From positions 1 through 64,000 of the forward strand of contig WRFZ01000179.1 of assembly GCA_009778655.1 (NCBI GenBank): a stretch of 64,000 nucleotides of DNA, given 5' to 3'. The notes under the pieces are model-generated. The model did no database searches and was not told where the DNA came from. It saw only the letters and a list, made by a program, of their open reading frames with translations. The translations under genes and the position numbers were made by a program. Below, one piece after another: positions 26,593-42,371 of the stretch (its first letter is position 1; the number at the start of each line of letters is the position of its first letter). This DNA is from Candidatus Azobacteroides sp. (GTDB lineage Bacteria > Bacteroidota > Bacteroidia > Bacteroidales > Azobacteroidaceae).

Positions 26593-28065
26593 ATGAGTTC
26601 TTCTTTAGCACAATCGCACAAGGTTCTTTTTTTGAACACCCTTGCTTTTATCTTATGTTTTGCCTGCTGGACCATGAACGGGGTCTTAGTGGCTTTTTTA
26701 ACAGATAAGGGAATTTTTGATTTCTCTGTAGTACAAATAGGCTGGCTTTTAGGTATTCCCGTTTTAACAGGCTCTCTTTTAAGGCTGCCTTTAGGGATTA
26801 TGACCGATAGATACGGAGGTAAATACATATTTATCGGATTATTGCTCTTTTGCGCATTATTTTTGTTTTTGCTTCCCTTTGCGACTTCATTTCTTATGTT
26901 CGCTACAATCAGTTTTATGTGGGGGATGGTAGGAGCGAGTTTTGCTGTCGGAGTAGGATATACCTCCGTTTGGTATCCTAAAGAATGGCAGGGAAGAGCG
27001 TTGGGTATCTTCGGCGTGGGAAATGCTGGAGCCGCATTAACCACTTTTATCGCTCCGTCTCTGCTTAATCATTTCTCTCAAAGCGACCCGCAGAACGGAT
27101 GGAAAATGCTACCCGTGATTTATGGCATATCTTTGATTGTAGTAGCTGTACTGATGCTGCTATTTGCTAAAAACAAAAAATACGAGAATGTTTCTACAAG
27201 TCTTGCCTATGAATTATCGCCCTTAAAAAGCGTTCGGGTCTGGCGGTTCGGTTTATACTACTTTCTGGTATTCGGCTTTTTTATAGCTTTCTCTCAGTGG
27301 TTAGTTCCTTACTTCATGAACGTTTACGCTACGTCATTAGTTGTGGCCGGGTTGTTCGCATCCTGTTTCAGCCTTCCGGGCGGAGTTATCCGGGCTGTGG
27401 GCGGATTTTTAGCGGATAAATTCGGAGCAAGAAAAGTGATGTACTGGGTATTGGGATCCTCCGTAATAATCAGCTTTTTGCTTATGTTTCCCAAAATGGA
27501 TATTTTTACGGGCGGAGTAGGCGTTTCATCCGGAGGCAAAGGTACGGTAACCGAAGTTGCTCCGGATAGAATAGTAGTAGGTACGAAAGAGTACAAGGTA
27601 AATATCGCGGGACAAGGAGTGGATTTGGAAAATAACAACAGCGTGTTTCCCTCCAAAGCTTCTTGGCAGGAAGTGGTGGTGAAACAAAATCAAGACGTAA
27701 AGAAAAAGGAATTACTTGCCAAAGGGATCACCCACATTCATTTCAGCGCGAATATGTGGATATTTATAGTTCTGGTTTTTATGCTGGGATTTTCATGGGC
27801 TATCGGTAAAGCGGCCGTTTACCGGTATATTCCCGATTATTTCCCGAAACAAGTGGGAGTTGTGGGAGGAATCGTCGGATTGATCGGAGGATTAGGCGGC
27901 TTTGTAGGGCCTATCATTTTCGGATACATCTTGAATTATACCGGATTTTGGACCAGTTCATGGATATTTATCTTCCTCCTTTCTATCCTGTGTCTTGCCT
28001 TATTAATACATGCCGTCAGCTATTTGAATAAGAAAAAAACGTCTGAAATTCAAAATAATATATAA
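26593..28065 (+). CDS. narK: NarK-type nitrate/nitrite transporter (first copy)
   Basis: Major facilitator transporter of 490 residues, probably importing nitrate and/or exchanging it for nitrite across the inner membrane. The nitrate-porter signature is visible in helix 5 (ALGIFGVGNAGAALTTFIAPSL, about 137-158). The MFS loop motif GIMTDRYGGK is near residue 68 and the second-half equivalent GGFLADKFGARK near 270. An unusual hydrophilic insertion of about 85 residues (about 301-385, rich in Gly, Val, Lys) splits the second half between two helices. It heads the nitrate/molybdenum cluster; a second NarK gene follows after 47 bases. Confidence 0.88.
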   Translation: MSSSLAQSHKVLFLNTLAFILCFACWTMNGVLVAFLTDKGIFDFSVVQIGWLLGIPVLTGSLLRLPLGIMTDRYGGKYIFIGLLLFCALFLFLLPFATSFLMFATISFMWGMVGASFAVGVGYTSVWYPKEWQGRALGIFGVGNAGAALTTFIAPSLLNHFSQSDPQNGWKMLPVIYGISLIVVAVLMLLFAKNKKYENVSTSLAYELSPLKSVRVWRFGLYYFLVFGFFIAFSQWLVPYFMNVYATSLVVAGLFASCFSLPGGVIRAVGGFLADKFGARKVMYWVLGSSVIISFLLMFPKMDIFTGGVGVSSGGKGTVTEVAPDRIVVGTKEYKVNIAGQGVDLENNNSVFPSKASWQEVVVKQNQDVKKKELLAKGITHIHFSANMWIFIVLVFMLGFSWAIGKAAVYRYIPDYFPKQVGVVGGIVGLIGGLGGFVGPIIFGYILNYTGFWTSSWIFIFLLSILCLALLIHAVSYLNKKKTSEIQNNI

Positions 28066-28112
28066 GTGAAATAACCGATTTACTAACAAATAATTTAAAA
28101 CTAAATAATACA

Positions 28113-29468
28113 ATGGCTACATGGATTAATGATTGGAACCCCGAAGATAATCATTTTTGGGAATCGAAAGGAAAGAAAATAGCGTGGAACACGCTGACGA
28201 TTACTACTATTTCGTTGCTTCTTTCTTTCGTCGTTTGGTATTTGATGAGTGGTATAGTAACTAAACTGCCGGGAGTCGGATTTAATTTCACGGAAAGGCA
28301 GTTATTCTGGTTGGCTGCGTTGCCCGGATTGGCTGCCGGATTTTTACGAATCATACATTCCTTTTTAATTCCGATTTACGGAACACGACATACGATAACG
28401 ATTTCAACCATAATTAAGTTGATTCCGGTTATCGGATTAATGATGGCTGTTATGAATGTGAATACTCCGTTTTGGGTATTTGCGGTACTATCGTTTACCA
28501 CCGGTTTCGGAGGCGGCGACTTTTCTTCGTTTATGCCTTCTACCAATTTGTTTTTCCCGGCGCGTTTGAAAGGAACCGCTTTAGGAATCCAAGCGGGTAT
28601 CGGTAATTTCGGAGTAAGCGTAGTCCAATTTTTAGTTCCGGCACTATTGGGAGTAGCAATCGTAGGAGCTCCTCAGATGTTGAAAACAACCAATGTGGCT
28701 ACCCACGAAGTAACGACCAAAGCGATCTATTTGCAAAGCCCGATCGTTATTCTTATTCCGCTCTTAATCATCATGACCATCGTATGTTGGATATGGTTAA
28801 AAAGTATTCCTTTGAAACGAACATTTAAAGAACAAATGGGTATTTTCAAAATTAAACATACGTGGTTTTGTACCATTACTTATATTATGACTTTCGGAAC
28901 TTTTTCCGGCTTGGCAGCCGCTTTCCCGTTGATGATAAAATCGTTGTACGGAGGTTTCGAAGGCGGACCGGATCCGTTGAAATACGCATTTTACGGTCCT
29001 CTGATCGGTTCTGCAAGCAGAGTATTGTTTGGATTCGTGGCAGATAAAGTGGGAGGTGCTGTATTAACCACCATTACCGGTATCGGATTTGTCGTTTGTA
29101 TTGCTATTATGGTTCAAACAGGCGCAGTAGCTCCGACTTCCTTAGACCAATTCCACATTTTCCTATGGACGATGCTGATCATGTTCTTCTTCTCGGGAGT
29201 AGGTAATGCAGCTACATTCAGACAATATCCTATTATATTTAAAAGTAATTCCGTACATGGCGCAGGCGTTATCGGATGGACAGCCGCTATTGCATCTTTC
29301 GGACCTTTTGTTTTTTCAAACATCATCGGTTCTGAACTTCAAAGTACCGCAGCAGCAGGCCATAAAGGCGTTAACACTTTTTTCTGGGGACTGCTGGTAT
29401 TTTCTGTAATAGCAACTATTATTAACTGGTATTACTATCAAAGGAAAGGATGCGAAAGACCGAGTTAA
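28113..29468 (+). CDS. narK: NarK-type nitrate/nitrite transporter (second copy)
   Basis: Second MFS transporter of the NarK family, 451 residues with about 12 helices and no insertion. The helix 5 signature reads ALGIQAGIGNFGVSVVQFLVPALLG (about 153-177, shown in pieces). A loop motif GFVADKVGGAV lies near residue 307. Its sequence differs clearly from the first copy. The pair may therefore mirror the NarK1 (nitrate/proton symport) and NarK2 (nitrate/nitrite exchange) split known where both occur, with nitrite leaving as product. Which copy does which cannot be told here. The 45-base gap to the next gene is filled by a heptanucleotide repeat. Confidence 0.86.
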   Translation: MATWINDWNPEDNHFWESKGKKIAWNTLTITTISLLLSFVVWYLMSGIVTKLPGVGFNFTERQLFWLAALPGLAAGFLRIIHSFLIPIYGTRHTITISTIIKLIPVIGLMMAVMNVNTPFWVFAVLSFTTGFGGGDFSSFMPSTNLFFPARLKGTALGIQAGIGNFGVSVVQFLVPALLGVAIVGAPQMLKTTNVATHEVTTKAIYLQSPIVILIPLLIIMTIVCWIWLKSIPLKRTFKEQMGIFKIKHTWFCTITYIMTFGTFSGLAAAFPLMIKSLYGGFEGGPDPLKYAFYGPLIGSASRVLFGFVADKVGGAVLTTITGIGFVVCIAIMVQTGAVAPTSLDQFHIFLWTMLIMFFFSGVGNAATFRQYPIIFKSNSVHGAGVIGWTAAIASFGPFVFSNIIGSELQSTAAAGHKGVNTFFWGLLVFSVIATIINWYYYQRKGCERPS

Positions 29469-29474
29469 GAAGTC

Positions 29475-29516
29475 AATTATAAATTATGAATTATGAATTA
29501 TAAATTATGAGTTATG
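29475..29516 (+). repeat. Heptanucleotide tandem repeat (AATTATR) containing a start codon
   Basis: Units in register: AATTATA, AATTATG, AATTATG, AATTATA, AATTATG and AGTTATG. The last unit's ATG (29514-29516) is the start codon of the cytochrome b-like gene, so repeat sequence replaces any ordinary ribosome-binding region. Confidence 0.88.
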
Positions 29517-30554
29517 GCTAAATCGGAGAATACGCTTAGCAGAAGCGCATTGGTTAAAGCAATTATTGCTTCTGTTCTTCTTATAATATTGGTTTTCTTG
29601 GGATCCGGGAATTTCCGGGAATTGGATGCAGCCTTGATTCCTTATTTATTGGGAGTAATTCTTGCCGTTTTCGGTATTACCTACCGTCTTTCGGTTTGGC
29701 TGCAACGCCCGCCGACCCGATTGTATTGGAAACGTATGGGGAAACTTTCGTTGGCTCATCCGATAAAGTTCATTCAACTGCTTTTTAGAAACCTCATTTT
29801 TCAAAAATTCATTTATTCGAGAGGTAAAGACCGTTGGATAGGACATTTCTTGATGTCAATCGGATGTATCGCCGCTTTCGGCGTCACCATTCCATTGACT
29901 TTCGGATGGATCGGTTTTGTTCTGAAATCCGGTTCCCTGACAGGATACGAAGCCCATATGTTCGGATTTAAAGCAATGAGCTTTCAATTAGGATCTTTTA
30001 TCGCTTATATGCTCTTTCACGTTTTAATTTTCTGCTCCATAGCTGTAATTATCGGTGCAATGATCATGTTGAGAAGACGAATGACCGAGGAAGGATTGGT
30101 CGCCACTCAAACTTTTGAAGGCGATTTGCTTCCGTTGCTTTTGATAATTGCCGTTGCGGCTACGGGACTCGGAATCGCTTTTGATTATATGTTTTTGGAC
30201 GGAAAAGTTCACCAATTCATGTCGGTAACGCATGCCGTAACCGTCATTCTGTTCTTATTATGGATTCCGTTCGGCAAATTCATTCATATTGTTCAACGTC
30301 CGATGCAGATAGGAGTGAATATTTACAAAATGGAAGGCGAAAAACAAGGGATGGCGGTATGCCCTCTTACGAAAGAAGAATTTGCCACCAAGATGCACAT
30401 CGCCGATTTGAAAGAAGTAACCTTGGAAACGGGATTTGATTTCAGATTGAAAAACGGTGACAATCATTTGAATTACAGCCCCGAAGGAAAGCGATCGCTT
30501 TTAGCTAAAGCTCACTTGAAAGCAAGAGAAGATGCGGGAAGTTATTTTGGATAA
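29514..30554 (+). CDS. NarI-like membrane cytochrome b subunit
   Basis: Integral membrane protein of 346 residues with about six helices (about 12-31, 38-63, 107-137, 156-186, 204-227, 235-260) and a soluble C-terminal tail. Histidines lie in or near helices: H111 (helix 3), H169 (helix 4), H233, H240 and H258 (helix 6). The H240/H258 spacing resembles the paired heme ligands in NarI helix V. I read it as a b-type, quinol-oxidising anchor for the molybdenum enzyme encoded next. The assignment rests on topology, His placement and context more than on strong sequence similarity. The start is the ATG inside the heptad repeat. Confidence 0.68.
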   Translation: MAKSENTLSRSALVKAIIASVLLIILVFLGSGNFRELDAALIPYLLGVILAVFGITYRLSVWLQRPPTRLYWKRMGKLSLAHPIKFIQLLFRNLIFQKFIYSRGKDRWIGHFLMSIGCIAAFGVTIPLTFGWIGFVLKSGSLTGYEAHMFGFKAMSFQLGSFIAYMLFHVLIFCSIAVIIGAMIMLRRRMTEEGLVATQTFEGDLLPLLLIIAVAATGLGIAFDYMFLDGKVHQFMSVTHAVTVILFLLWIPFGKFIHIVQRPMQIGVNIYKMEGEKQGMAVCPLTKEEFATKMHIADLKEVTLETGFDFRLKNGDNHLNYSPEGKRSLLAKAHLKAREDAGSYFG

Positions 30555-30576
30555 CAGTAGAAAAAATGAATAGAAT

Positions 30577-32799
30577 ATGGCTAAACTACCTGTAAGTGAA
30601 GAAAAAATAATTGACCAATTCGGTCCTCATAAACACTACCCTCCCTTGGGTGGATTTAAGGGCGTATCCAACCCGGACAAATTGGTAAAAACGCATTGTT
30701 GCTTTTGCGGCATGCAATGCGGTATTCAATTAAAGGTAAAAGACAATAAAGTGGTAGGCTTTGAACCTTGGAAAGAATTTATTTTTAACGAAGGCCGGCT
30801 TTGCCCCAAAGGAGTACAACGTTATTTGCAGAATAATCACCCCGATCGTTTGCAGACGCCTTATAAAAGAGTAGAAGGCGTAGGCTTTGTACCTATCGAA
30901 TGGGAAGAAGCAATGTCTAAAGTCGTTTCGGAAATTCAGCGAATCCAAAAGCAATACGGCAACGATGCTTTTGCCATGCTTTCGGGAGTATCGTTAACCA
31001 ATGAAAAAAGCTACTTGCACGGAAAATTCGCTCGAGTAGCGTTAAAAACCAAAAATTTGGACTATAACGGCCGCTTATGTATGGTAAGCGCGGGAGCCGG
31101 AAACAAAAAAGCTTTCGGTTTAGACAGAGCATCCAACAACTGGAGCGATTTGAAACATGCCGAAGTGATTATGGTTGCCGGAGCCAATGTGAGCGAAACT
31201 TTCCCGACACTTACTTACCCGATTTGGGAAGCAAGAGATAACGGGGCTAAATTGATTGTTGTAGATCCGAGAGTCGTTCCTTTTGCCCGTACCGCCGATT
31301 TGCATTTAGACTTGCGGCCGGGAACCGATTCCGCCTTATTCGGCGCCATACTGAAAGTATTGGTGGACAATAATTGGATAGATAAAGATTTTATCGAAAA
31401 TTACACCAGCGGTTTTGAAGATACCGTTGCATCCATACAAGACCATACGTTGGAATGGGCGGAAAAAGTAACCGGAGTTTCTGCGGAAAAAATATATAAA
31501 GCCGCGGAAATGTGGGGCAAGGCAAAAACCAGTTTTGCTCTCCATGCGCGAGGAATTGAACATCATACCAAAGGAGTAGATAATGTGGTAAGTATGATCA
31601 ATCTGGTATTGGCGACCGGAAGAATCGGAAAACCTTACTGCGGATATGCTACGATTACCGGACAAGGAAACGGACAAGGCGGTCGGGAACAAGGACATAA
31701 ATGCGATCAGCTCCCCGGCAATCGGGATATTGAAAATCCGGAACACCGGAAATACATTGCGGAAGTTTGGGGTATTAATGAAGCTGATCTGCCGGGCAAA
31801 GGTCTCAGTGCGCATGAGATAATACATGCCATTCACAGAGGCGAGATTAAAGGACTTCTCAGTATTTGTTTCAATCCTTTGGTATCTCTTCCGAACAGCA
31901 ATTATGTTCGGGAGGCTTTGGAAAAATTGGAATTTTATGTAGCGATTGACTTCTTTTTAAGTGAAACGGGAAGGTATGCGGATATTGTATTGGCCGGTTC
32001 GCTTCACGAAGAAGAAGACGGAACGGTTACTACGGCGGAAGGAAGAGTCGTTCGAATTAATCAGGTTGTCACACCTCCCGGGAAGGCCCGCAAAGACAGC
32101 GAGATAATTAAAGAAATAGCGCGTCGTTTAGGTTCCGGTGATAAATTTAATTTTGAAAACAGTGAAGCTATTTTTAATGAAATGCGTGTGGCTTCCAAGG
32201 GAGGTACAGCCGATTATTACGGAATTACCTATGAAAAGATTGAAAAAAACATGGGCGTATTTTGGCCCTGTCCGTCTTTAGATCATCCGGGAACGCCCCG
32301 GTTGTGGGAAGACCGGAAGTTCAGAACTCCGGACGGGAAAGCTCATTTCAATCCGGCGCCTTACCGTCTGTCCGCAGAAATGCCGGACGAAGAATATCCG
32401 ATTATTTTAACGACAGGAAGGGTGGTATCGCAATACCTCAGCGGTTCTCAAACCCGCAGGATAGGGAAATTAGTGGATCAATATCCCGAACCTTTATTGG
32501 AAATTCATCCCGAACTGGCGGCAAAATACGGAATACAACAAGGAGATTTGATCCGGGTAAAGACCCGGAGAGGCGAAGTAACGCTCCCGGCTAATGTTGT
32601 AGCAACGATACGGAAAGATACCGTTTTTATCCCTTATCATTGGGGCGGATGCCATTCCGCTAATTTATTAACAAACGATAGCCTTGATCCGGTTTCCAAA
32701 ATTCCGGAATTTAAAGTATGCGCTTGTAAATTAGAAAACACAAAGGAAAAAGCTCCCGATTCGAAGCTATCAAATGCGTATCAAAGTTTTTCTCATTAA
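30577..32799 (+). CDS. Molybdopterin oxidoreductase, Nas/Nap-lineage nitrate reductase catalytic subunit
   Basis: Catalytic subunit of 740 residues. An N-terminal 4Fe-4S motif is present (C41-x2-C44-x3-C48-x27-C76, ending RLCPKG). A Cys ligand for molybdenum is at C168 in [12 protein letters not shown], as in NapA/NasA-type enzymes rather than the Asp of NarG. The [21 protein letters not shown] stretch (about 360-380) and the C-terminal molybdopterin dinucleotide-binding domain ([11 protein letters not shown]) support the nitrate reductase/formate dehydrogenase group. No Tat or Sec signal is present, so the enzyme should be cytoplasmic. Nitrate as substrate is inferred from the two adjacent NarK genes; a formate dehydrogenase-like role is the main alternative. 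Confidence 0.83.
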
Positions 32800-32810
32800 A
32801 ATACAGAATT

Positions 32811-33380
32811 ATGGTTACAACAGAATACAATAAAAATATGCAGTTCTTTACGGATATGCAACGCTGTATCGGATGCCATGCTTGTGAAGTAGCTTGTGCG
32901 GAATGCGAAACCAACGGTCAAGACACGATGATTCATATTCATTATGTGGACAGAGCCAACACCATTCAAACAACGATGCAAGTATGCATGCATTGTGACG
33001 ACCCGGTTTGCGCTAATGTATGTCCGGCCAATGCAATTGTCAAAAATGCCAACGGAGTAGTGCTTTCGGCAAATACCTCCCGTTGCTTCGGATGCTCCAA
33101 TTGCGTAATGTCTTGTCCTTTCGGCGTACCTATCAAGAAAGAAGAATCCGAATTAATGATGAAATGCAATATGTGCTACGACAGAACCGGCGCCGGACTG
33201 AGGCCCATGTGTGCAACCGTTTGTCCGAGTAACGCTTTATTCTACGGCACGCCGGAAGATATAGAAGAAAGACGTCCGCACAGTACTCCGGTAAACAAAT
33301 TTATCATCGGAGAACAGGAAATTATCACTAAAGTAAATGTAATGATGCCGAAAGGCAGTACAGAATTAACAATCCACTAA
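32811..33380 (+). CDS. Four-cluster ferredoxin-type electron transfer subunit
   Basis: Electron-transfer subunit of 189 residues in the DmsB/NrfC/NarH superfamily. Sixteen cysteines form four 4Fe-4S sites: C19/C22/C25/C29, C59/C62/C67/C71, C92/C95/C98/C102 and C119/C122/C134/C138. It has no signal peptide, matching the cytoplasmic catalytic subunit 11 bases upstream. It should wire that subunit to the membrane cytochrome. An internal ATG at residue 10 is a possible alternative start, since the family often begins just before the first cysteine motif. Confidence 0.88.
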   Translation: MVTTEYNKNMQFFTDMQRCIGCHACEVACAECETNGQDTMIHIHYVDRANTIQTTMQVCMHCDDPVCANVCPANAIVKNANGVVLSANTSRCFGCSNCVMSCPFGVPIKKEESELMMKCNMCYDRTGAGLRPMCATVCPSNALFYGTPEDIEERRPHSTPVNKFIIGEQEIITKVNVMMPKGSTELTIH

Positions 33381-33391
33381 ATAAAAGGAAA

Positions 33392-33898
33392 ATGTCGCAA
33401 GATAATAATAATAAAACCCCTGTATGGAAATCTGATTTTCCGATTAAACAAGATGAATCAACCCTCATTTCACGCAGGAAATTTACTAAATTATTGTGTT
33501 TGTTATCCGGAGGATTAGCTTTAGGAACCGGAGCGATTGCAATTAAATCCGTAGCTTGTCCTCGTGCGCGAATAGGAGGAGAATATTTTGTTTGTGAAGC
33601 GTCCGAATTACCTGTCGGAGGAATGAAGTCTTCTATTATTATCAACGATAAAACCGAAACACCTTATATCCTGATTCATTTGGCTGAAGACAAGTGGAGA
33701 TGCTTTGCACAAAAATGCACCCACTTGTCTTGTTCGGTTTTGTATCGTCCCGATATGAAGAAAATTATGTGTCCTTGCCACGAAGGAGCTTTTGATCCCG
33801 AAACCGGCGAGGTATTGCAAGGCCCGCCGCCGAGACCTTTACCGCAAATATCTGTAATTGTGCGTGAAGGGAAAGTATATCTAACCGACAAAGCATAG
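33392..33898 (+). CDS. Tat-targeted Rieske 2Fe-2S protein
   Basis: Rieske protein of 168 residues. A twin-arginine signal (SRRKFTKLL, about 27-35) is followed by a hydrophobic stretch (about 35-55), suggesting an exported, membrane-tethered domain as in QcrA. Cluster-binding motifs are CTHLSC (about 109-114) and CPCHEGAF (about 128-135). Ser replaces the usual Gly in CTHxGC. The cluster would face the periplasm while the catalytic subunit lacks export signals, so it must act on the quinol side of the complex. Spacing of 11 and 4 bases to its neighbours supports a single operon. Confidence 0.87.
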   Translation: MSQDNNNKTPVWKSDFPIKQDESTLISRRKFTKLLCLLSGGLALGTGAIAIKSVACPRARIGGEYFVCEASELPVGGMKSSIIINDKTETPYILIHLAEDKWRCFAQKCTHLSCSVLYRPDMKKIMCPCHEGAFDPETGEVLQGPPPRPLPQISVIVREGKVYLTDKA

Positions 33899-33902
33899 AA
33901 AT

Positions 33903-34175
33903 ATGAGCGATTATAGAGAAACCCAAAATTTGATACATCCGGATAAAACCAACATTCTGATGGCAACCATAGTGGTGATATTGATAGTGATAGTAACATT
34001 GCAACTATGGATCATGTACGGAGCATTGAACAGCTCGGAGGATAGTAATCAAGTGTTCGTGTGGGCAGCTTTCGGAGCTTCTTTGTTGCTGTTTATAGCA
34101 GGATTATGGTTGCTGAAATACCTTCCGGATACAAAAGCGAAAGAAGTAAAGGACCCCGACAATCCCTATGTGTAA
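33903..34175 (+). CDS. Small two-helix membrane protein of the nitrate cluster
   Basis: Protein of 90 residues with two transmembrane helices (about 18-40 and 51-70) and a charged C-terminal tail ending KDPDNPYV. I do not recognise the family. It begins four bases after the Rieske gene and overlaps moaA by eight bases, so it is tightly embedded in the operon. It is likely an accessory or structural subunit of the membrane complex, but no cofactor ligand (no His pair, no Cys) is visible to suggest a redox role. Confidence 0.7.
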   Translation: MSDYRETQNLIHPDKTNILMATIVVILIVIVTLQLWIMYGALNSSEDSNQVFVWAAFGASLLLFIAGLWLLKYLPDTKAKEVKDPDNPYV

Positions 34176-35154
34176 ATTATTTGACTCATACAACAGAGTC
34201 CATAATTATTTGCGAATCTCTTTGACGGATGATTGCAATTTTCGATGTATTTACTGCACGCCGGAAGAGAGCATACAATGCTTTTCCCGACAAGAGTTGA
34301 TGACATCGGATGAAATCTTTGAGATAGCAAAACTTTTTACGGATAACGGAACAAACAAAATCCGCCTTACCGGAGGAGAACCTCTGGTAAGGTATGATTT
34401 TGCCGAAATTGTAGAAAAATTGGCCCGATTACCGGTTGAACTTACGCTCACCACCAATGGCGCTTTGTTACACAAATACGTAAAGCTACTGAAAGAAAAC
34501 GGAGTAAAATCCGTAAACATTAGCCTTGATTCTTTTGATAATGAACGATTTAAATCCATAACTAAAAGGAATGCATTCTCTCAAGTATGGGAGAATATCC
34601 TTCTTTGTCTGAAAGAAGGCTTTTATGTTAAACTGAATGTCGTGGTTATGAAAGGCATCAATGAAGCGGAAATTCCGGATTTTATTGCCCGGACTCGAAA
34701 CTTACCGATACATGTACGGTTTATAGAATTTATGCCTTTCAGCGGAAACGATTGGGAAATAAGTCGTGTAGTTACAATGAAGGAAATGCTTTCCGCCATC
34801 GAAGAAGACTTCTTCGTTGAGAAAATACAAGATAATAAACACGATACGGCAAAAAAATACAGAGTTCGAGGTTATAAAGGAACATTCGCCTTTATAACTG
34901 CCGTGAGCCACCCTTTTTGCAATGAGTGTAACCGAATACGACTTACAGCCGACGGTAAAATAAAAAATTGTCTTTTCGGAAAAGAAAAATTCGATGTATT
35001 GGGCCCTTTGCGAAAGGGAGAAGATATTCAACCCGTTATTTCAGAATGCTTAATACGAAAACAGGATAAACCGGAAAATCGGCCGGAGAATTATAAAAAC
35101 CGGGATTCCGATTATTTGGAAGACCAATTAATGATTATTAAGATCGGAGGGTAA
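34168..35154 (+). CDS. moaA: GTP 3',8-cyclase MoaA
   Basis: Radical SAM enzyme of 328 residues that starts molybdenum cofactor synthesis from GTP. The SAM cluster motif is C23-x3-C27-x2-C30 (DDCNFRCIYCTP). The second, C-terminal cluster site is visible in HPFCNECNRIRLTADGKIKNCLFG (about 248-271, in pieces). The family's C-terminal GG is represented by a final IGG. It begins inside the end of the 90-aa gene (eight-base overlap), directly linking cofactor synthesis to the reductase operon. Confidence 0.92.
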   Translation: MCKLFDSYNRVHNYLRISLTDDCNFRCIYCTPEESIQCFSRQELMTSDEIFEIAKLFTDNGTNKIRLTGGEPLVRYDFAEIVEKLARLPVELTLTTNGALLHKYVKLLKENGVKSVNISLDSFDNERFKSITKRNAFSQVWENILLCLKEGFYVKLNVVVMKGINEAEIPDFIARTRNLPIHVRFIEFMPFSGNDWEISRVVTMKEMLSAIEEDFFVEKIQDNKHDTAKKYRVRGYKGTFAFITAVSHPFCNECNRIRLTADGKIKNCLFGKEKFDVLGPLRKGEDIQPVISECLIRKQDKPENRPENYKNRDSDYLEDQLMIIKIGG

Positions 35155-35198
35155 AATTTTTTACTCTTCGATATGTCAAAAAAAACCTATCGAATAAA

Positions 35199-36389
35199 AT
35201 GAACTTTATTACAGTACAAGAAGCGGAAACGCTTATTAAGAAAGAAATTTTTCGGACACAACCGGTAGAAAAACCGCTGTCGGAGGCTTTGCATTTTTAT
35301 TCCGCCGCGCCGGTTTACGCTCCCATAGATGTTCCTCCTTTTGATAATTCGGCTATGGACGGGTATGCTTTTGCCTACCAAGATTATGTTGATAAGAAAG
35401 AGATTAAAGTATGTTACGCCATCCAAGCCGGAGATACGAAATTACCGATTTTGCAATCGGGCGAAGCCGCTCGTATTTTTACCGGAGCGATGATACCCGA
35501 AGGCGCCGATACGGTAGTCATGCAGGAAAATACGAAAGAAGAAAACAGAATCCTTCATATCAAAGAACATACTTTTAATAAAGGAGAGAATGTCCGTCCG
35601 AGAGGTTCTCAATCCCAAAAAGGAGATTTGATTTTGGCCGAAAATGTTTTGATTAATCCGGGGACCATCGGAATGTTAGCCGGATTCGGGATTAATAAAA
35701 TACGCGTTTTTTCTTTACCGAAAGTAGAAATTATTATTACCGGAAATGAATTTGTCGAACCGGGAAAGCCGATGAAAGAAGGCCAAATTTACGAAAGTAA
35801 CGCGATTACATTGCAAGCAGTCTTGAAAGAACAAGGTATCGAGGCACAATCGCCGGTGAAAGTCCGGGATAACAAAGATGTTACTTTTCCGTCTATCAAG
35901 AAGGGTTTGGAAACGGCGGATGTCTTATTAATTACCGGAGGAATTTCCGTAGGAGAATATGACTTTGTAAAAGAATCGCTGGAAAAATCAGGCGTTGAAG
36001 AGTTGTTTTACAAAATACAACAAAAACCGGGCAAACCTCTGTTTTTCGGGAAAAAAGAGAATCATTATGTTTTTGCTTTACCCGGAAATCCGGCATCTGT
36101 ATTGATTTGTTTTTATCGCTACGTTCGGCCGTTTCTGGAAGGACTGAAAGGAAATCCGAATCCTTTTGAAAACAAGATGATTGCCCGATTAAGCGGTGAT
36201 TACAATAAAAAGAACGAACTTACCAATTTACAAAAAGGATTGTTGAAGAATGACGGTACGGTTACCGTTTTGCCTAATCAAGAATCGTATAAAATGAATG
36301 CCTTTACGGAAACAAACTGTGTGGTGGAAATTTCGGGAGAAAAGAGAAAAATGGCTGAAAATGAAAAAGTGATCGTATGGAAAATATGA
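35199..36389 (+). CDS. moeA: Molybdopterin molybdenumtransferase MoeA
   Basis: Inserts molybdate into adenylylated molybdopterin. It has 396 residues, typical length. The family signature PPFDNSAMDGYAFA lies at about 46-59. The MoCF-binding domain shows TGNEFVEPGKPMKEGQIYESN near 184 and ITGGISVGEYDFVKE near 246. The active-site segment KPGKPLFFG is near 278, and ALPGNPASV follows. The stop overlaps the next gene by 13 bases. All known partners for the final cofactor steps except a MoaD-activating enzyme are encoded downstream. Confidence 0.92.
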   Translation: MNFITVQEAETLIKKEIFRTQPVEKPLSEALHFYSAAPVYAPIDVPPFDNSAMDGYAFAYQDYVDKKEIKVCYAIQAGDTKLPILQSGEAARIFTGAMIPEGADTVVMQENTKEENRILHIKEHTFNKGENVRPRGSQSQKGDLILAENVLINPGTIGMLAGFGINKIRVFSLPKVEIIITGNEFVEPGKPMKEGQIYESNAITLQAVLKEQGIEAQSPVKVRDNKDVTFPSIKKGLETADVLLITGGISVGEYDFVKESLEKSGVEELFYKIQQKPGKPLFFGKKENHYVFALPGNPASVLICFYRYVRPFLEGLKGNPNPFENKMIARLSGDYNKKNELTNLQKGLLKNDGTVTVLPNQESYKMNAFTETNCVVEISGEKRKMAENEKVIVWKI

Positions 36390-36703
36390 AAATAGAGGGA
36401 CATATTTGGATGGACACGCCCGGTGGATTAAAAATCGGCAGAGGCAGGGCTATGCTGTTGGAGTTAATCGGGCGCACGGGTTCTATTGCCGAAGCTGCGC
36501 GAATATCGGGAATCCCTTACCGGAGAGCTTGGGAAATGATTCGGGAAATGAATAAATATGCTGCAACTTTATTGGTCGTAAAAAGCGTCGGCGGAAGAGA
36601 CGGAGGCCGGTCAACTTTGACCGATGAAGGGCGAAGAGTACTTTCAATGTTTCGAAAACTCAACCTTGATTTTGAGCAGTTCAAAAAGGTAGCGCATGAT
36701 TGA
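36377..36703 (+). CDS. Solo ModE-type winged helix DNA-binding protein
   Basis: Protein of 108 residues corresponding to the N-terminal domain of the molybdate regulator ModE. The helix-turn-helix is GSIAEAARISGIPYRRAWEMIREMN (about 35-59, shown in pieces), followed by the wing VVKSVGGRDGGRSTLTDEGRRVL. The C-terminal molybdate-binding Mop/TOBE domains of full ModE are absent. It either senses through a separate protein or responds to something else. It overlaps both moeA (13 bases) and mobA (8 bases), so it is an integral operon member and a candidate autoregulator of the cluster. Confidence 0.85.
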   Translation: MENMKIEGHIWMDTPGGLKIGRGRAMLLELIGRTGSIAEAARISGIPYRRAWEMIREMNKYAATLLVVKSVGGRDGGRSTLTDEGRRVLSMFRKLNLDFEQFKKVAHD

Positions 36704-37280
36704 ATATATGATTGAGGAGGCCTGTATATTAGCCGGAGGAAAAAGTTCTCGAATGGGAGAAGACAAGGGATTGAAATTACTGCACGGCAAGCCGATGATT
36801 CGGTATGTGATAGAAGCGTTAATTCCTCGTTTTCCACGGATAAAAATCAGCGCCGGAAATCCGGAATATAACATGTTCGGGTATGAAGTGGTCGCTGATG
36901 TTATTCCGGAAAAAGGACCGATGGGCGGAATTTATACGGCGCTGAAAAATTTGTCCGGTGATGATCTGTTTATTATCAGTTGCGATATGCCGTATATCTC
37001 CGGTTCATCATTCGATGGTCTGTTGCAACAAAAAAACGAGTCGGCAACGGTAGCCGTTTGCGACGGAAAAATTCAACCGTTGTTCGGCATCTACGGCAAA
37101 AATCTGATTCCCCTGCTGGAAGCGAAAATCGAACAAAATCAATTGGGAATGACCGCGTTTTTACGGGAAATAAATGCAACCTTCGTTGACATAAACAATG
37201 AGGCCGGTTTTTTGAATATTAATACGCCGGATGATTTCAGACACATAGAAAATGAATTTAAAAATAAATCAGAGAAATGA
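36696..37280 (+). CDS. mobA: Molybdenum cofactor guanylyltransferase MobA
   Basis: Attaches GMP to molybdopterin, giving the dinucleotide form required by DMSO-reductase-superfamily enzymes such as the one encoded here. It has 194 residues. The nucleotidyltransferase signature LAGGKSSRMGEDKGLKLLHGKPMI (about 13-36, in pieces) is clear. SCDMPYIS (about 93-100) supplies the metal-binding Asp, and the C-terminal NINTPDDF is typical. The start at 36696 overlaps the preceding gene; an ATG at 36708 is a possible alternative. No mobB is seen. Confidence 0.9.
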   Translation: MIEYMIEEACILAGGKSSRMGEDKGLKLLHGKPMIRYVIEALIPRFPRIKISAGNPEYNMFGYEVVADVIPEKGPMGGIYTALKNLSGDDLFIISCDMPYISGSSFDGLLQQKNESATVAVCDGKIQPLFGIYGKNLIPLLEAKIEQNQLGMTAFLREINATFVDINNEAGFLNINTPDDFRHIENEFKNKSEK

Positions 37281-37504
37281 GAATCCGAATTTTTGGAAAT
37301 CTGACCGACATCTTCGGCGCCGATAATTATACGATTGAACCGGCAGCCACCGTATCGGATTTGAAGGAAAAGCTGGAACAAATTTTTCCTCAATTGAGAA
37401 ACTGCGTTTATTTAACGATAGTTAATGACGAAGCGGCGCAAGAAAACGATTCCATTCCTTCCGATGCCGAAGTGGCTTTGCTTCCGCCGTATTCGGGAGG
37501 GTAA
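37277..37504 (+). CDS. moaD: Molybdopterin synthase small subunit MoaD
   Basis: Ubiquitin-fold sulfur carrier of 75 residues that donates sulfur to precursor Z within molybdopterin synthase. It starts with the beta strand MRIRIFGNLTDIFG and ends in the essential double glycine (LLPPYSGG). It overlaps mobA by four bases and precedes moaE by 11, giving the usual subunit pair. Its activation needs an E1-like adenylyltransferase (MoeB), which is not in this window and must be supplied elsewhere, perhaps by a ThiF homologue. Confidence 0.92.
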   Translation: MRIRIFGNLTDIFGADNYTIEPAATVSDLKEKLEQIFPQLRNCVYLTIVNDEAAQENDSIPSDAEVALLPPYSGG

Positions 37505-37515
37505 ATAATAGGATT

Positions 37516-37956
37516 ATGAATGAACGACAAAAAAACTTCTTTATTGAAGGCGCAATTTCCGAAATTTATATAGCGGAAATATTGCAAAAATACAGAACGG
37601 AAACAAAAGCGGGAGGGCACAGTATCTTTTTAGGTCAAGTGCGCGCCGATGAAAAAGACGGCCAAGAGGTGCAAGCCATCGAGTTTACGGCGTATCAAGA
37701 ACCGGCGATAAAAAAAATGGCGCAAATACGGGAAGAGATTATCGCTAAATACAAATTAATCGGTTTGCATGTTTATCACAGCTTGGGAATCGTGCAAAAA
37801 GGCGAAATCTGCCTCTTTGCCTTTACTTGCGCTCAACACCGAAAACCGGCGATGGAGGCTTGCAGCGAGTTGGTGGAACGGTTGAAAAAAGAATTACCCG
37901 TTTGGGGCAAAGAAATTTGTAACGACGGTTCTCATCATTGGAAAGAAAACAGATGA
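37516..37956 (+). CDS. moaE: Molybdopterin synthase catalytic subunit MoaE
   Basis: Large subunit of molybdopterin synthase, 146 residues. Family segments: GGHSIFLGQVRADEKDGQEVQAIEFTAYQ (about 33-61, in pieces), the central helix with KKMAQIREEI, and the C-terminal AQHRKPAMEACSELVERLKKELPVWGKE, which carries the conserved His-Arg and catalytic-site lysines. The TGA stop shares its last base with the first unit of a nine-copy heptanucleotide repeat that fills most of the gap to moaCB. Confidence 0.91.
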   Translation: MNERQKNFFIEGAISEIYIAEILQKYRTETKAGGHSIFLGQVRADEKDGQEVQAIEFTAYQEPAIKKMAQIREEIIAKYKLIGLHVYHSLGIVQKGEICLFAFTCAQHRKPAMEACSELVERLKKELPVWGKEICNDGSHHWKENR

Positions 37957-38018
37957 ATTATAAATTATGAATTATGAATTATGAATTATGAATTATAAAT
38001 TATGAATTATGAATTAAT
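37956..38018 (+). repeat. Nine-unit heptanucleotide tandem repeat (AATTATR)
   Basis: The units, in register, are AATTATA, then AATTATG four times, AATTATA, AATTATG twice and AATTAAT. The array begins on the last base of the moaE stop codon and ends 15 bases before the moaCB ATG. Same unit as the array at 29475-29516. Confidence 0.92.
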
Positions 38019-38033
38019 ACAAATTTTTTAGTT

Positions 38034-38942
38034 ATGATAGACATTACATCAAAAAACAGTTCGTTGCGGAAGGCAACAGCACAAGCCGTAGTGAAAACAA
38101 GTTCACCGCAAACGATACAGGCTGTGCAAGAGAATAAAGTCCCCAAAGGGAATGTATTTGAAATGGCAAGAGCCGCAGCATTACTTGCGGCTAAACATAC
38201 CGCTTCGGTGATACCCGATTGCCATCCGATGCCCATAGAATATGCGGCAGTCGGCTTTGAAATCGAGGATTTGCAAATCATTATTACGGCGGAAATAAAA
38301 ACCGTCTATAAAACCGGAGTAGAGATGGAAGCCTTGTATGCCGCTTCCGTTGCGGCCCTTACTATTTACGACATGCTGAAACCCCTTGATAAGAATATGG
38401 AGATACTCCATATTCAATTATCGGAAAAACGAGGAGGCAAATCGGATAAGAAGGATGTTTTTGACGTACCGTTGACCGCTTCGGTAATCGTATGTTCCGA
38501 CAGCATTTCCGGAGGAGATAAAGAAGATAAAGCCGGAAAAGTAATCATGGAAAAACTGAAAACCGGAGGAGTAATCGTCTCCGATTATATCATTATCCCC
38601 GATGAAATCGAGGAAATTCAAGCCAAAGTAAAGGCATATACCCGGCAGGGAATCAATATGGTGTTGATTACCGGCGGTACCGGATTATCCAAACGGGACG
38701 TAACGCCCGAAGCCGTAAAGCCTTTGTTGGACAGAGAGATTCCGGGTATAGCAGAAGCCATGCGGAATTACGGTCAAGACCGGACGCCATTGTCAATGCT
38801 CTCCAGAAGCATTGCCGGATTTATCGGAGAAACCTTGGTGATCGCTTTGCCCGGCTCTACCAAAGGTGCGGAAGAATCCATGGATGCTATTTTCCCTGCC
38901 GTATTGCATGTTTTTAAAATTCAAGATGGATTTCAACATTAA
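38034..38942 (+). CDS. moaCB: Fused MoaC-MoaB/MogA molybdenum cofactor protein
   Basis: Bifunctional protein of 302 residues. Residues about 1-150 are MoaC (cyclic pyranopterin monophosphate synthase), with KGNVFEMARAAALLAAKHT, PDCHPMPIEYAAVGFEI and GVEMEALYAASVAALTIYDM. Residues about 160-302 are the MoaB/MogA adenylyltransferase-type domain, with ITGGTGLSKRDVTPEAVKPLLDREIPGIAEAM and IALPGSTKGAEESM (in pieces). Fusions of this type are known and combine an early step with a late activation step. Together with moaA, moaD, moaE and moeA, the cluster covers the pathway except MoaD adenylation. Confidence 0.9.
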   Translation: MIDITSKNSSLRKATAQAVVKTSSPQTIQAVQENKVPKGNVFEMARAAALLAAKHTASVIPDCHPMPIEYAAVGFEIEDLQIIITAEIKTVYKTGVEMEALYAASVAALTIYDMLKPLDKNMEILHIQLSEKRGGKSDKKDVFDVPLTASVIVCSDSISGGDKEDKAGKVIMEKLKTGGVIVSDYIIIPDEIEEIQAKVKAYTRQGINMVLITGGTGLSKRDVTPEAVKPLLDREIPGIAEAMRNYGQDRTPLSMLSRSIAGFIGETLVIALPGSTKGAEESMDAIFPAVLHVFKIQDGFQH

Positions 38943-39000
38943 GAAAATAATTGGGAATTATTAATTAAAATTATAAATAACAATTTAAAATTAGAGATTT

Positions 39001-39747
39001 ATGAGAAAAACAATTTTTTTAGTTTTACTTTCGCTGGTAAGCATCGGTATCTTTGCTCAAAAAGCGAATATTGCGGCTGCGGCTAATTTGAGATTTGTGT
39101 TGGAAGAAATAAAGACACAATACGTGAATGAAAACCCGAATGCGACCATCCAACTCACTTTTAGCTCATCGGGTACACTTACACAGCAAGTTACAAACGG
39201 CGCTCCTTTTGATCTTTTTCTGTCGGCCGATACCGTTTTCCCGAATAAAATAAAGGATGCCGGGATGGCTTCGGGTTCGGTAGAAACCTATTGTTACGGT
39301 AAAATAGCGATGTGGAGTTCTTCTCTTGATCTTTCTCAAGGTCTTCCTATCGTATTGTCTCCCGAAGTAAAGAAAATAGCCATTGCCAATCCGGTAAATG
39401 CTCCTTACGGAGAAAATACGGTTGCGATGCTTAAAAATCAAAACCTGTACGATAAAGTCAGCGATAAAATTGTTTGGGGAGAAAACATTAGTCAAACCGC
39501 GCAATATGCCTTTTCGGGAAATGTGGAAATAGGCTTTATCGCTCTTTCATTGGCGTTGGCTCCCGATATGAAAGATAAAGGGAAATATTATGTCTTGCCT
39601 GAGAATATTTGTCCGCCTGTCGAACAAGCCGCCGTTCTTGTTAAAGGATGGGAAAAGAATGGAGAAGCGGCTAAGTTCTTGAAATACTTGAGGAGTGAAA
39701 AATGTAAGCCCTTATGGGAAAAATACGGATACAGTCTGCCGCAATAA
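39001..39747 (+). CDS. modA: Molybdate ABC transporter substrate-binding protein ModA
   Basis: Periplasmic binding protein of 248 residues. The signal peptide ends near residue 20 (SIGIFAQ). The mature start NIAAAANLRFVLEEI is the ModA hallmark, with ligand-contact residues expected in AAANL and in the TFSSSGTL segment (about 53-60). GAPFDLFLSADTVFPNKI (about 67-84) is also typical. It opens the molybdate-uptake section of the cluster. It is separated from the permease gene modB by an outer-membrane porin gene. Confidence 0.9.
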   Translation: MRKTIFLVLLSLVSIGIFAQKANIAAAANLRFVLEEIKTQYVNENPNATIQLTFSSSGTLTQQVTNGAPFDLFLSADTVFPNKIKDAGMASGSVETYCYGKIAMWSSSLDLSQGLPIVLSPEVKKIAIANPVNAPYGENTVAMLKNQNLYDKVSDKIVWGENISQTAQYAFSGNVEIGFIALSLALAPDMKDKGKYYVLPENICPPVEQAAVLVKGWEKNGEAAKFLKYLRSEKCKPLWEKYGYSLPQ

Positions 39748-39769
39748 AACATTTTAAAAAATAAATCTT

Positions 39770-41014
39770 ATGAAGAAACTATTATTTATTGTAAGTATTT
39801 CTCTCTTGTCCGTAACCCATGCATTCGGACAAGCAATCAAAGTTGATGCCGAAGTTCGCTCGCGCGGCGAGTATCGCGACGGATTCCGAGAACCGTTGGC
39901 AGATACGCTCAATCCGGTTTATGTAAACAATTTACGAACCAAACTGAATATCGCATACGCTTCGTCGGACGTTAAAGCCAAAGTATCGTTGCTTGACACG
40001 CGCACGCTCGGCGGTACCGAGCCGGGAAGAACCGGCAGCGGAATAGGAGTTCTCGAAGCATGGGGAGAATATAACTTTACTCCCGAATTTTCGTTTTCGA
40101 TCGGGCGGCAAGGATTGGAGTATGACGACAAACGTTTGTTTTCATACAACAATTGGAGCAACACGCCCGCAGCGCACGACATCGCAATGCTGAAATACAA
40201 CGGTTCGGGATTATCGGTTCATTTCGGCACGGCGTATAACAACGCAAGCGATGCTCTTTATCAATCTATCACTCCCTACACAATGACCTACAGAACGTTG
40301 AACTTCATTCGGGCCGAAAAAAATTTCGGATTGCTTTCCGCGTCGGCTCTTTGGGTTAACGACGGTTATCAAAGCGGATCCGAAAACGATGTAACTACGA
40401 CCTACCGCAATACGGTGGGCGGTAACTTGTGGCTGACAAACAAAAAAAATCCTTTCACATTTTTAGCAAGCGGATATTACCAATTCGGACATGACCGATC
40501 AAACAAAAAACTAAGCTCTTATCTGTTGGCAATTAATGCGCAGCAAACGTGGGCCGGAAGATACAGCTTGCAAATCGGAGGCGATTTGTATTCGGGTTCC
40601 GCTTACGACATAGATGCAAAGAAAAGCAACACATTTAACAAACTGTACGGTTCTAACCATTCTTTCAACGGTTCCATGGAATATTGGAGTACTTTGCCGA
40701 ACCAAGGTCTGTTTGATTTTTTTGCGGGTGCAACCGCCAAAGGTTCTTCTAAATTCGACATTAACTTGACTTATCACTACTTTGCCACGGCGAGAGCCAT
40801 GAATGCAGACGGCGATAAAGGTTTGGGTTCGGAAATTGATCTCACGGCAAACTATACGGTTAACGAACTGCTGGCCGTACAAGGCGGCTGGAGCTTCTAT
40901 TTCAAAAACAACGGAACCGATATAGTGAAGAGCAAAACAGGTATAGATACCCGTTTCCCTCAATGGATATACCTTCAATTAACATTTAAGCCCGTATTTT
41001 TTAATAAAAAATAA
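39770..41014 (+). CDS. Outer-membrane beta-barrel porin (alginate-export-like)
   Basis: Protein of 414 residues with a signal peptide ending near residue 21 (THAFGQ). A succession of amphipathic strands follows, for example FTPEFSFSIGRQGLEYDD, NLWLTNKKNPFTFLASGYYQF and FDINLTYHYFATARAM. It ends in aromatic-containing strands (WIYLQLTFKPVFF), as outer-membrane barrels do. The overall pattern resembles the alginate-export/porin superfamily. Its place between modA and modB, with gaps of 22 and 8 bases, points to a channel for molybdate or nitrate rather than a sugar. That substrate is inference from position. Confidence 0.75.
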   Translation: MKKLLFIVSISLLSVTHAFGQAIKVDAEVRSRGEYRDGFREPLADTLNPVYVNNLRTKLNIAYASSDVKAKVSLLDTRTLGGTEPGRTGSGIGVLEAWGEYNFTPEFSFSIGRQGLEYDDKRLFSYNNWSNTPAAHDIAMLKYNGSGLSVHFGTAYNNASDALYQSITPYTMTYRTLNFIRAEKNFGLLSASALWVNDGYQSGSENDVTTTYRNTVGGNLWLTNKKNPFTFLASGYYQFGHDRSNKKLSSYLLAINAQQTWAGRYSLQIGGDLYSGSAYDIDAKKSNTFNKLYGSNHSFNGSMEYWSTLPNQGLFDFFAGATAKGSSKFDINLTYHYFATARAMNADGDKGLGSEIDLTANYTVNELLAVQGGWSFYFKNNGTDIVKSKTGIDTRFPQWIYLQLTFKPVFFNKK

Positions 41015-41022
41015 AAACGTAA

Positions 41023-41700
41023 TTGAAATCTGATTTTATCAATACGCTTGCATTAACCGGAGAATTAGCCGTAATAACGACGATCCTGTTATTGATTGTG
41101 GGGCTTCCCATTGCCTACGGGCTGTCTTACAGCCGCCGAAGAATAAAAGCTGTTTTTGAAGCGCTGATATGTATGCCGCTGGTATTGCCTCCGACCGTTC
41201 TGGGATATTATCTGTTGGTGGCTTTCAGTCCACAAAATGCTTTCGGGGCTTTTCTGGAAAAATATTTTGATACCCGTCTGGCATTTACCTTCGAAGGAAT
41301 TGTCATAGCAAGTATTATTGCCGGACTTCCTTTTATGATACAACCGCTTCAGAACGGATTTACAGCCCTGCCCGAAAGTTACAGGGAAGCTGCCTATACC
41401 TTGGGAAAATCTAAATTCGAGACTTTTTATCGGGTATTGCTTCCTAACATAAAACCGTCTGTTATTACGGGAATAGCTCTGACTTTTGCTCATAGTATCG
41501 GTGAATTTGGAATCGTTTTAATGGTGGGAGGCAATATTCCGGGCGAAACCCGTATTGCCTCCATTGCCATTTACGATCAGGTGCAAGCGCTAAACTACAA
41601 AGCGGCCAATCAATATTCCGGCATTTTATTTATTATTTCTTTTGCATTGCTGACGCTGATTTACAGTATTAATAAGAATTTCAGGTTGAGGATGAACTAA
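41023..41700 (+). CDS. modB: Molybdate ABC transporter permease ModB
   Basis: Inner-membrane permease of 225 residues with five to six helices. The EAA loop that docks on the ATPase is visible (EAAYTLGKSKFETFYRVLLPNIKP, about 122-145, in pieces). The ModB-typical GEFGIVLMVGGNIPGETR is near 161-178. The only in-frame start near the previous gene is TTG at 41023, eight bases after the porin stop. Upstream MPLVLPPTVLGYYLL is typical of the family. Confidence 0.9.
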   Translation: MKSDFINTLALTGELAVITTILLLIVGLPIAYGLSYSRRRIKAVFEALICMPLVLPPTVLGYYLLVAFSPQNAFGAFLEKYFDTRLAFTFEGIVIASIIAGLPFMIQPLQNGFTALPESYREAAYTLGKSKFETFYRVLLPNIKPSVITGIALTFAHSIGEFGIVLMVGGNIPGETRIASIAIYDQVQALNYKAANQYSGILFIISFALLTLIYSINKNFRLRMN

Positions 41701-41717
41701 ACCCCAAAAGTCAAGAG

Positions 41718-42371
41718 ATGATACATATTCATGTGGAACGAAAATTAATGAGCGCCGACGGAGTGAAAATACTGACGATCGAAACCCGGATTCCGGAAAA
41801 TCAATTAATCTGTATCACGGGACATTCCGGAGCCGGAAAAACGACGATGCTTCGTATGATAGCGGGATTAACTCGTCCCGATAAAGGAATTATTCAAATA
41901 GGTGAAACAACGGTTTTCGATTCTTTTCAAAAAATAAATCTCCCCCCGCAAAAAAGAAATATCGGGTTTATGTTTCAAGATTACGCCTTATTTCCCAATA
42001 TGACGGTAGAAGAAAATATCGCCTTTGCACAGTCCCGGGAAAAAGATAAAGATTGGATAAATATGTTAATGGAGACTTTCGGACTGAAAGCGTTGAGAAA
42101 ACAAAAACCGGACAAACTATCGGGAGGGCAGAAGCAAAGAGTGGCGCTTGCCCGCGCTTTAGCAAGGAAAGCAAACATTCTGTTATTGGATGAGCCGCTC
42201 TCTGCCGTAGATCGTAAAATGCGAACGGAACTGCAAGATGAAATATTGAAAACGCATCAACTTTTCGGCTCGACGATCTTGTTGGTGAGTCACGATGAAG
42301 ACGAAATCAATAAAATGGCTTCCTATATTTTTCCTATGGACGGAGAAAAATCAGAATTGAAAAAAGTCTGA
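41718..42371 (+). CDS. modC: Molybdate ABC transporter ATP-binding protein ModC
   Basis: ABC ATPase of 217 residues: Walker A GHSGAGKTT (about 35-43), Q-loop near FMFQDYALFPNM, signature LSGGQKQRVALARALA (about 134-149), Walker B ILLLDEPLSAVD and the switch histidine in LVSHDEDE. It lacks the C-terminal Mop (molybdate-binding) domain that makes typical ModC about 350 residues, so feedback inhibition by bound molybdate is not expected. It is the last gene of the cluster; ychF follows after 98 bases with its own promoter box. Confidence 0.88.
   Translation: MIHIHVERKLMSADGVKILTIETRIPENQLICITGHSGAGKTTMLRMIAGLTRPDKGIIQIGETTVFDSFQKINLPPQKRNIGFMFQDYALFPNMTVEENIAFAQSREKDKDWINMLMETFGLKALRKQKPDKLSGGQKQRVALARALARKANILLLDEPLSAVDRKMRTELQDEILKTHQLFGSTILLVSHDEDEINKMASYIFPMDGEKSELKKV

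Follow-up and report, generated by a model that had tools for sequence, protein, structure and literature searches.

A five-gene locus of Candidatus Azobacteroides predicted to encode a cytoplasm-facing menaquinol:nitrate oxidoreductase built on a NasC-lineage catalytic subunit

In NarGHI, a cytoplasmic molybdenum (Mo) subunit, the Asp-ligated NarG, is joined to a four-cluster subunit and to the cytochrome b NarI, and NarK transporters go with it. The haloarchaeal nar operon encodes NarG and NarH together with NarC, a bc1-type cytochrome b (PMC8301774), and arsenite oxidase AioAB pairs a Mo subunit, which has no protein Mo ligand (PMC10100899), with a Rieske protein of the twin-arginine translocation (Tat) type. 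Homologues of NasC and NasA have been stated to be exclusively assimilatory (PMC10100899). We analysed a 64,000-nt stretch of DNA from Candidatus Azobacteroides sp. (contig WRFZ01000179.1; hereafter the window), in which five genes at 29514-34175 encode a NarI-like cytochrome b, a catalytic subunit, a ferredoxin subunit, a Rieske protein and a small DUF6755 protein. These five tightly spaced genes, noticed in an earlier sequence-only reading, were all recovered as intact open reading frames (ORFs). They share one strand and lie 22, 11, 11 and 4 bp apart, and the fifth overlaps moaA by 8 bp (Table 1). Their products probably form a membrane-bound, cytoplasm-facing respiratory menaquinol:nitrate oxidoreductase, and the sequence evidence supports the view that a catalytic subunit of assimilatory type has been recruited into a quinol-linked membrane complex. 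The same recruitment had been put forward in the sequence-only reading and is favoured by the place of the catalytic subunit beside NasC, its Cys-Met site, the NarI-like cytochrome b, the invariant gene set and the anaerobic growth of Flavobacterium columnare.

The catalytic subunit carries the domains PF00384, PF01568 and PF04879 and the cluster motif C41-C44-C48-C76. It had been described as a Cys-ligated molybdopterin subunit without an export signal, in agreement with the presence of Cys168-Met169 in all catalytic subunits from the 86 loci compared (80 loci from genome contigs, the window, L044 and four Deinococcus plasmids) and with the lack of a twin-arginine motif and of a hydrophobic N terminus. 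In a tree of 56 rows, 17 of them from five-gene loci and four of NasC type, the 17 rows formed one clade (support 100/100), which grouped with the four NasC-type rows, again at 100/100, beside and not inside the sampled NasC. NapA, NasA, NarB, NarG and the formate dehydrogenases all fell outside this group, NarG being the most distant row. The closest curated model was likewise that of NasC (NF047855), which the window protein matched with 844 bits against an equivalog cut-off of 1100; the Paenibacillus NasC-type row scored above that cut-off. Tree and model scores together show that the subunit belongs to the lineage of the assimilatory nitrate reductase NasC. Of the Nas/Nap lineage proposed previously, the Nas side thus stood and could be narrowed to a position next to NasC, and the Nap side did not, NapA lying in another clade.

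Membership in the NarG family was rejected on the basis of Cys168 (NarG has Cys-Asp at the aligned position), the distance of NarG in the tree and the score of only 64.9 bits with TIGR01580 (cut-off 1084). Nap shares the Cys-Met site with the window enzyme but is exported, and membership in it was rejected because of the separate clade and the missing twin-arginine signal in the translation; tree, active site and signal agree with the earlier statement that neither NarGHI nor Nap matches. Among the sampled Nas and Nap enzymes Cys-Met was the rule, except for the Cys-Thr of the cyanobacterial/Streptomyces NarB type. A formate dehydrogenase, or a reductase of another oxyanion, is the least probable of the alternatives: formate dehydrogenases are the nearest solved structures by sequence, and TIGR01591 gave 634 bits, just below its cut-off, but the site is Cys-Met in 86/86 subunits instead of the Cys/Sec-His found throughout the sampled formate dehydrogenases with a readable site, and the genes have NarK neighbours. 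Phylogeny of the 740-aa subunit, suggested earlier as a check, likewise placed it in its own clade beside NasC and not within the formate dehydrogenases, and membership in that family was rejected.

Collinearity of the five genes on one strand within 6.5 kb was found in 86/86 loci, from Bacteroidota and the four Deinococcus plasmids. This answers the neighbourhood search that had been advised, and because the set is conserved across two phyla, the arrangement is not due to chance. All five genes were matched by blastp in 81 of the 86 loci. In the four Deinococcus loci only the DUF6755 match was missing, three having an annotated DUF6755 protein and the fourth a hypothetical protein at the same position that is similar to the other three; locus L076 lacks the cytochrome b gene where its contig ends. 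Carriers include many flavobacteria and some Deinococcus. In a survey of DUF6755 that covered Bacteroidota genomes and plasmids, catalytic relatives of at least 75% identity and DUF6755 were found in the identical seven of 296 Bacteroidota genomes, outside of which the next catalytic-type enzymes reached at most 39% identity; among 72,556 plasmids, the cytochrome b, DUF6755 and the catalytic class of 60-80% identity all occurred in the identical four Deinococcus records. The 90-aa protein, which had been noted as a two-helix protein and does contain two transmembrane (TM) helices and a PF20540 (DUF6755) domain above cut-off, is probably a structural subunit; no mention of DUF6755 was found in the open-access literature.

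The invariance of these membrane partners bears on whether the enzyme could be an assimilatory nitrate reductase whose electron donors are unrelated to the quinone pool. The window enzyme is like NasC (Paenibacillus, Mycobacterium, Deinococcus grandis) in its neighbouring clade, its Cys-Met site, a common 11-letter motif and the lack of an export signal, NasC is its best curated match, and among annotated plasmid genes beyond the five-gene clade the closest relatives adjoin or lie near nirB. The sampled NasC-type genes, however, sit with nirB, whereas no nirB was seen among the neighbour genes identified around the five-gene set, and the relatives keep the cytochrome b, ferredoxin, Rieske and DUF6755 genes instead. 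F. denitrificans DSM 15936 carries, besides the operon, an additional enzyme of 1,176 aa, the length of the Nas-type tree rows, and none of its PF00384 matches has an open frame of the size expected for NarG (∼1,250 aa) or NapA (∼830 aa). In F. columnare NBRC 100251 (the type strain) the five-gene enzyme was the only PF00384 match, and F. columnare ATCC 49512 grows better anaerobically with nitrate; the one enzyme that the authors of that study could name was a ‘soluble cytoplasmic nitrate reductase’, which they credited with nitrate reduction (PMC5395568). A purely assimilatory role is, on this evidence, very unlikely.

The window cytochrome b alone gave no Pfam match above cut-off, and PF02665 (NarI) matched 13 of 24 family members weakly, below cut-off. 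A structure model built with Bacteroidota rows only (predicted local distance difference test, pLDDT, 73; predicted template modelling score, pTM, 0.60) predicts six TM helices, strands at 133-158 and a C-terminal domain. In a fold search with this model, EtfD (Z 12.0) and NarI (Z ∼10.8) led the list, and the remaining matches were mostly at Z 8 or below, the exceptions being a designed protein (9.9) and three entries for channels (8.1-8.6). Where ion channels and receptors matched at Z ∼7-8, we attributed the likeness to helix arrangements that are common. Using hhalign, THAVTVILFLLWIPFGKFIHIVQRP of the window cytochrome b was paired with the last helix of E. coli NarI, on which the heme ligands are H187 and H205; this pairing makes H240 and H258 the counterparts of these two NarI ligands, with the same 18-residue spacing. 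The cytochrome b had been called NarI-like, and the fold match and this alignment agree with the name. H111, kept in every ungapped cytochrome b row, and H169, which lies on a different helix and is kept in 82/85 (Gly or Lys in L044, L070 and L073), are the other candidate heme ligands, and are placed differently from the other ligands of NarI. By the positive-inside rule the N and C termini would both be cytoplasmic and the hairpin 131-160 periplasmic, and from this topology we propose that H111 and H258 may ligate a cytoplasmic heme and H169 and H240 a periplasmic one. In the Deinococcus complex the cytochrome b is 37% identical to that of the window; in public plasmid records it is mis-annotated as ‘MFS transporter’ (L125, L129, L130 and L131).

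For the ferredoxin subunit, four clusters had been claimed, and PF13247 together with 17 Cys residues invariant in 86/86 suffices for four [4Fe-4S] clusters. In architecture the complex resembles NarGHI, with a cytoplasmic Mo subunit, a four-cluster subunit, a NarI-like cytochrome b and NarK transporters. It differs from NarGHI in its Cys-ligated 740-aa subunit, in this ferredoxin of 189 aa, whose Cys set is complete, and in the extra Rieske and DUF6755 proteins, and no NarJ-like gene was seen within the surrounding 15.8-kb island (26593-42371). Like the haloarchaeal system, it combines a nitrate reductase with a membrane cytochrome b that differs from classical NarI; there, however, NarG is Tat-signalled and of the NarG family, in place of a cytoplasmic subunit of Cys type, and the cytochrome b is bc1-like and not NarI-like.

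A Tat signal had also been assigned to the Rieske protein, which has the twin-arginine motif SRRKFTK followed by one hydrophobic helix, and TatC is encoded by the host genome. Unlike AioA and its Rieske partner, which share one side of the membrane, the catalytic and Rieske subunits of the window complex are predicted to lie on opposite sides. The Rieske cluster motifs are of the bc type (C109-T/P-H-L-x-C114 and C127-P-C-H130), and the positions of the Ser and Tyr of bc1 are occupied by G132 and F134 in 86/86 Rieske proteins. Mutagenesis of bc1 has shown that loss of these hydroxyls lowers the Rieske potential. Since the two tuning hydroxyls are missing, the potential is predicted to be below that of the bc1 Rieske protein.

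Nothing in a NarI-type complex evidently calls for this protein, whose part in the electron path is putative. For this reason we retain a Nar/bc hybrid in which electrons are bifurcated: the Rieske protein would send one menaquinol electron to a periplasmic acceptor (a nitrite reductase or cytochrome c), and the second would cross via heme b of the NarI-like diheme cytochrome b to nitrate. The bc-type motif with its disulfide Cys pair speaks for such a hybrid, as does the nearest solved relative by sequence and fold, a Chlorobaculum bc/b6f-type Rieske protein. The operon Rieske was the sole one found in four of the six genomes tested, and a bc-type cytochrome b (PF13631) was found in none of the six, all of which retain the operon Rieske. 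The partner of the window Rieske is, however, NarI-like and not of the bc1/b6f type, and the five-gene set includes no conserved periplasmic acceptor such as a cytochrome c, so that we consider bifurcation unlikely.

In the favoured menaquinol:nitrate oxidoreductase, menaquinol would be oxidized on the periplasmic side of the cytochrome b, and electrons would cross the membrane via two hemes b to the four [4Fe-4S] clusters and the [4Fe-4S] cluster of the catalytic subunit, nitrate being reduced in the cytoplasm at the Cys-ligated Mo-bis-molybdopterin guanine dinucleotide (Mo-bisMGD). The reaction would be electrogenic, as in NarGHI, and the NarK proteins would bring nitrate in and nitrite out. 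The exported Rieske protein most likely docks on the periplasmic hairpin of the cytochrome b as an early acceptor of quinol electrons, which is the least certain step. Several points weigh against this scheme: electrons carried by the Rieske protein have no evident onward path in it; H169, the candidate ligand of the distal heme, is missing in 3/85 cytochromes b; the cytochrome b model is of medium confidence, and a fold match at Z ∼11 does not settle the matter by itself when the protein is helical; the growth phenotype and the genome of F. columnare come from different strains; and we know of no biochemistry of the complex.

Searches of the open-access literature, outside which lie most subscription papers and all preprints, turned up no account of the complex, which does not establish it as undescribed. 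Surveys of the type that counts only narG and napA (PMC8235139) would miss it, and as genes of this kind are often given the label ‘assimilatory’, nitrate respiration may go unnoticed in these bacteria. If the proposed function is true, the rule that NasC and NasA are exclusively assimilatory fails, nitrate respiration has been under-counted in Flavobacterium, Algoriphagus, Cyclobacterium, Apibacter and some Deinococcus, and a separate evolutionary route has led to an inward-facing quinol:nitrate reductase. It would also place a Rieske protein in a NarI-type complex, which is not found in the known NarI-type membrane nitrate reductase.

The catalytic clade was present in only one of 119 genomes of the host's order, that of the host, and was not found in a 1.2-Mb genome from the same genus. 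Apibacter has the most similar catalytic subunits (83-85% identity) and, among the loci compared, also the best matches for NarK2, ModE and the porin. This likeness and the absence elsewhere in the sampled host order suggest horizontal acquisition of the island, much of which is most like Apibacter, a member of a different order. No second PF00384 protein was found in the host genome (assembly ∼90% complete), and the molybdenum-cofactor genes of the island therefore probably serve the catalytic subunit. The host also encodes an NrfA-type ammonifying nitrite reductase (L156, G000:C105:4629-5921), a plausible step after the nitrate reductase, by which nitrite would probably be converted to ammonium.

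Table 1. Features of the five-gene set and the surrounding island (window coordinates; MFS, major facilitator superfamily; ABC, ATP-binding cassette)
Feature	Position	Strand	Evidence
NarK1, MFS nitrate/nitrite transporter with ∼80-aa hydrophilic insertion	26593..28065	+	TIGR00886 E 1.4e-55, below cut-off
NarK2, MFS nitrate/nitrite transporter	28113..29468	+	TIGR00886 E 2.9e-73, below cut-off
NarI-like cytochrome b, six TM helices	29514..30554	+	fold match, hhalign, conservation, model
Catalytic Mo-bisMGD subunit, NasC lineage, 740 aa, without export signal	30577..32799	+	NF047855 844 bits, tree, Cys168-Met169
Predicted Mo ligand Cys168 and diagnostic Met169	31078..31083	+	conservation, alignment
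Four-[4Fe-4S] ferredoxin subunit, 189 aa, short relative of FdnH/DmsB/NarH	32811..33380	+	PF13247, 17 conserved Cys
Tat-signal membrane-anchored Rieske [2Fe-2S] protein	33392..33898	+	PF00355 E 2.6e-13, RR at residues 28-29, CTHLSC/CPCH
Rieske cluster motif, residues 109-130; C114/C129 candidate disulfide pair	33716..33781	+	conservation
DUF6755 two-helix membrane protein, 90 aa	33903..34175	+	PF20540 41.5 bits (cut-off 27); exact co-occurrence with catalytic clade
moaA	34168..35154	+	TIGR02666 above cut-off
moeA	35199..36389	+	sequence and position; homologues in same place in relatives
ModE-type regulator domain	36377..36703	+	TIGR00637 E 1.6e-21, below cut-off
mobA	36696..37280	+	named by sequence and position
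moaE	37516..37956	+	PF02391
moaC fused to MoCF_biosynth (moaB/mog-type) domain	38034..38942	+	PF01967 and PF00994
modA, molybdate-binding protein	39001..39747	+	TIGR01256 above cut-off
Outer-membrane porin-like protein (Alginate_exp family)	39770..41014	+	PF13372
modB and modC, molybdate ABC transporter	41023..42371	+	PF00528, PF00005; names by position after modA

Two NarK importers had been reported upstream of the five genes, and two NarK-type transporters were indeed identified there. The insertion in NarK1 (residues ∼300-395) resembles by eye a lipoyl/barrel-sandwich motif; the NarK1 relatives aligned from Bacteroidota have it too, and the Deinococcus NarK1 lacks it. Promoter-like sites in the region were not more frequent than in shuffled sequences. 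Between moaE and the moaC fusion gene, nine copies of the 7-bp repeat ATGAATT are present at 37953-38016, the number of which might vary.

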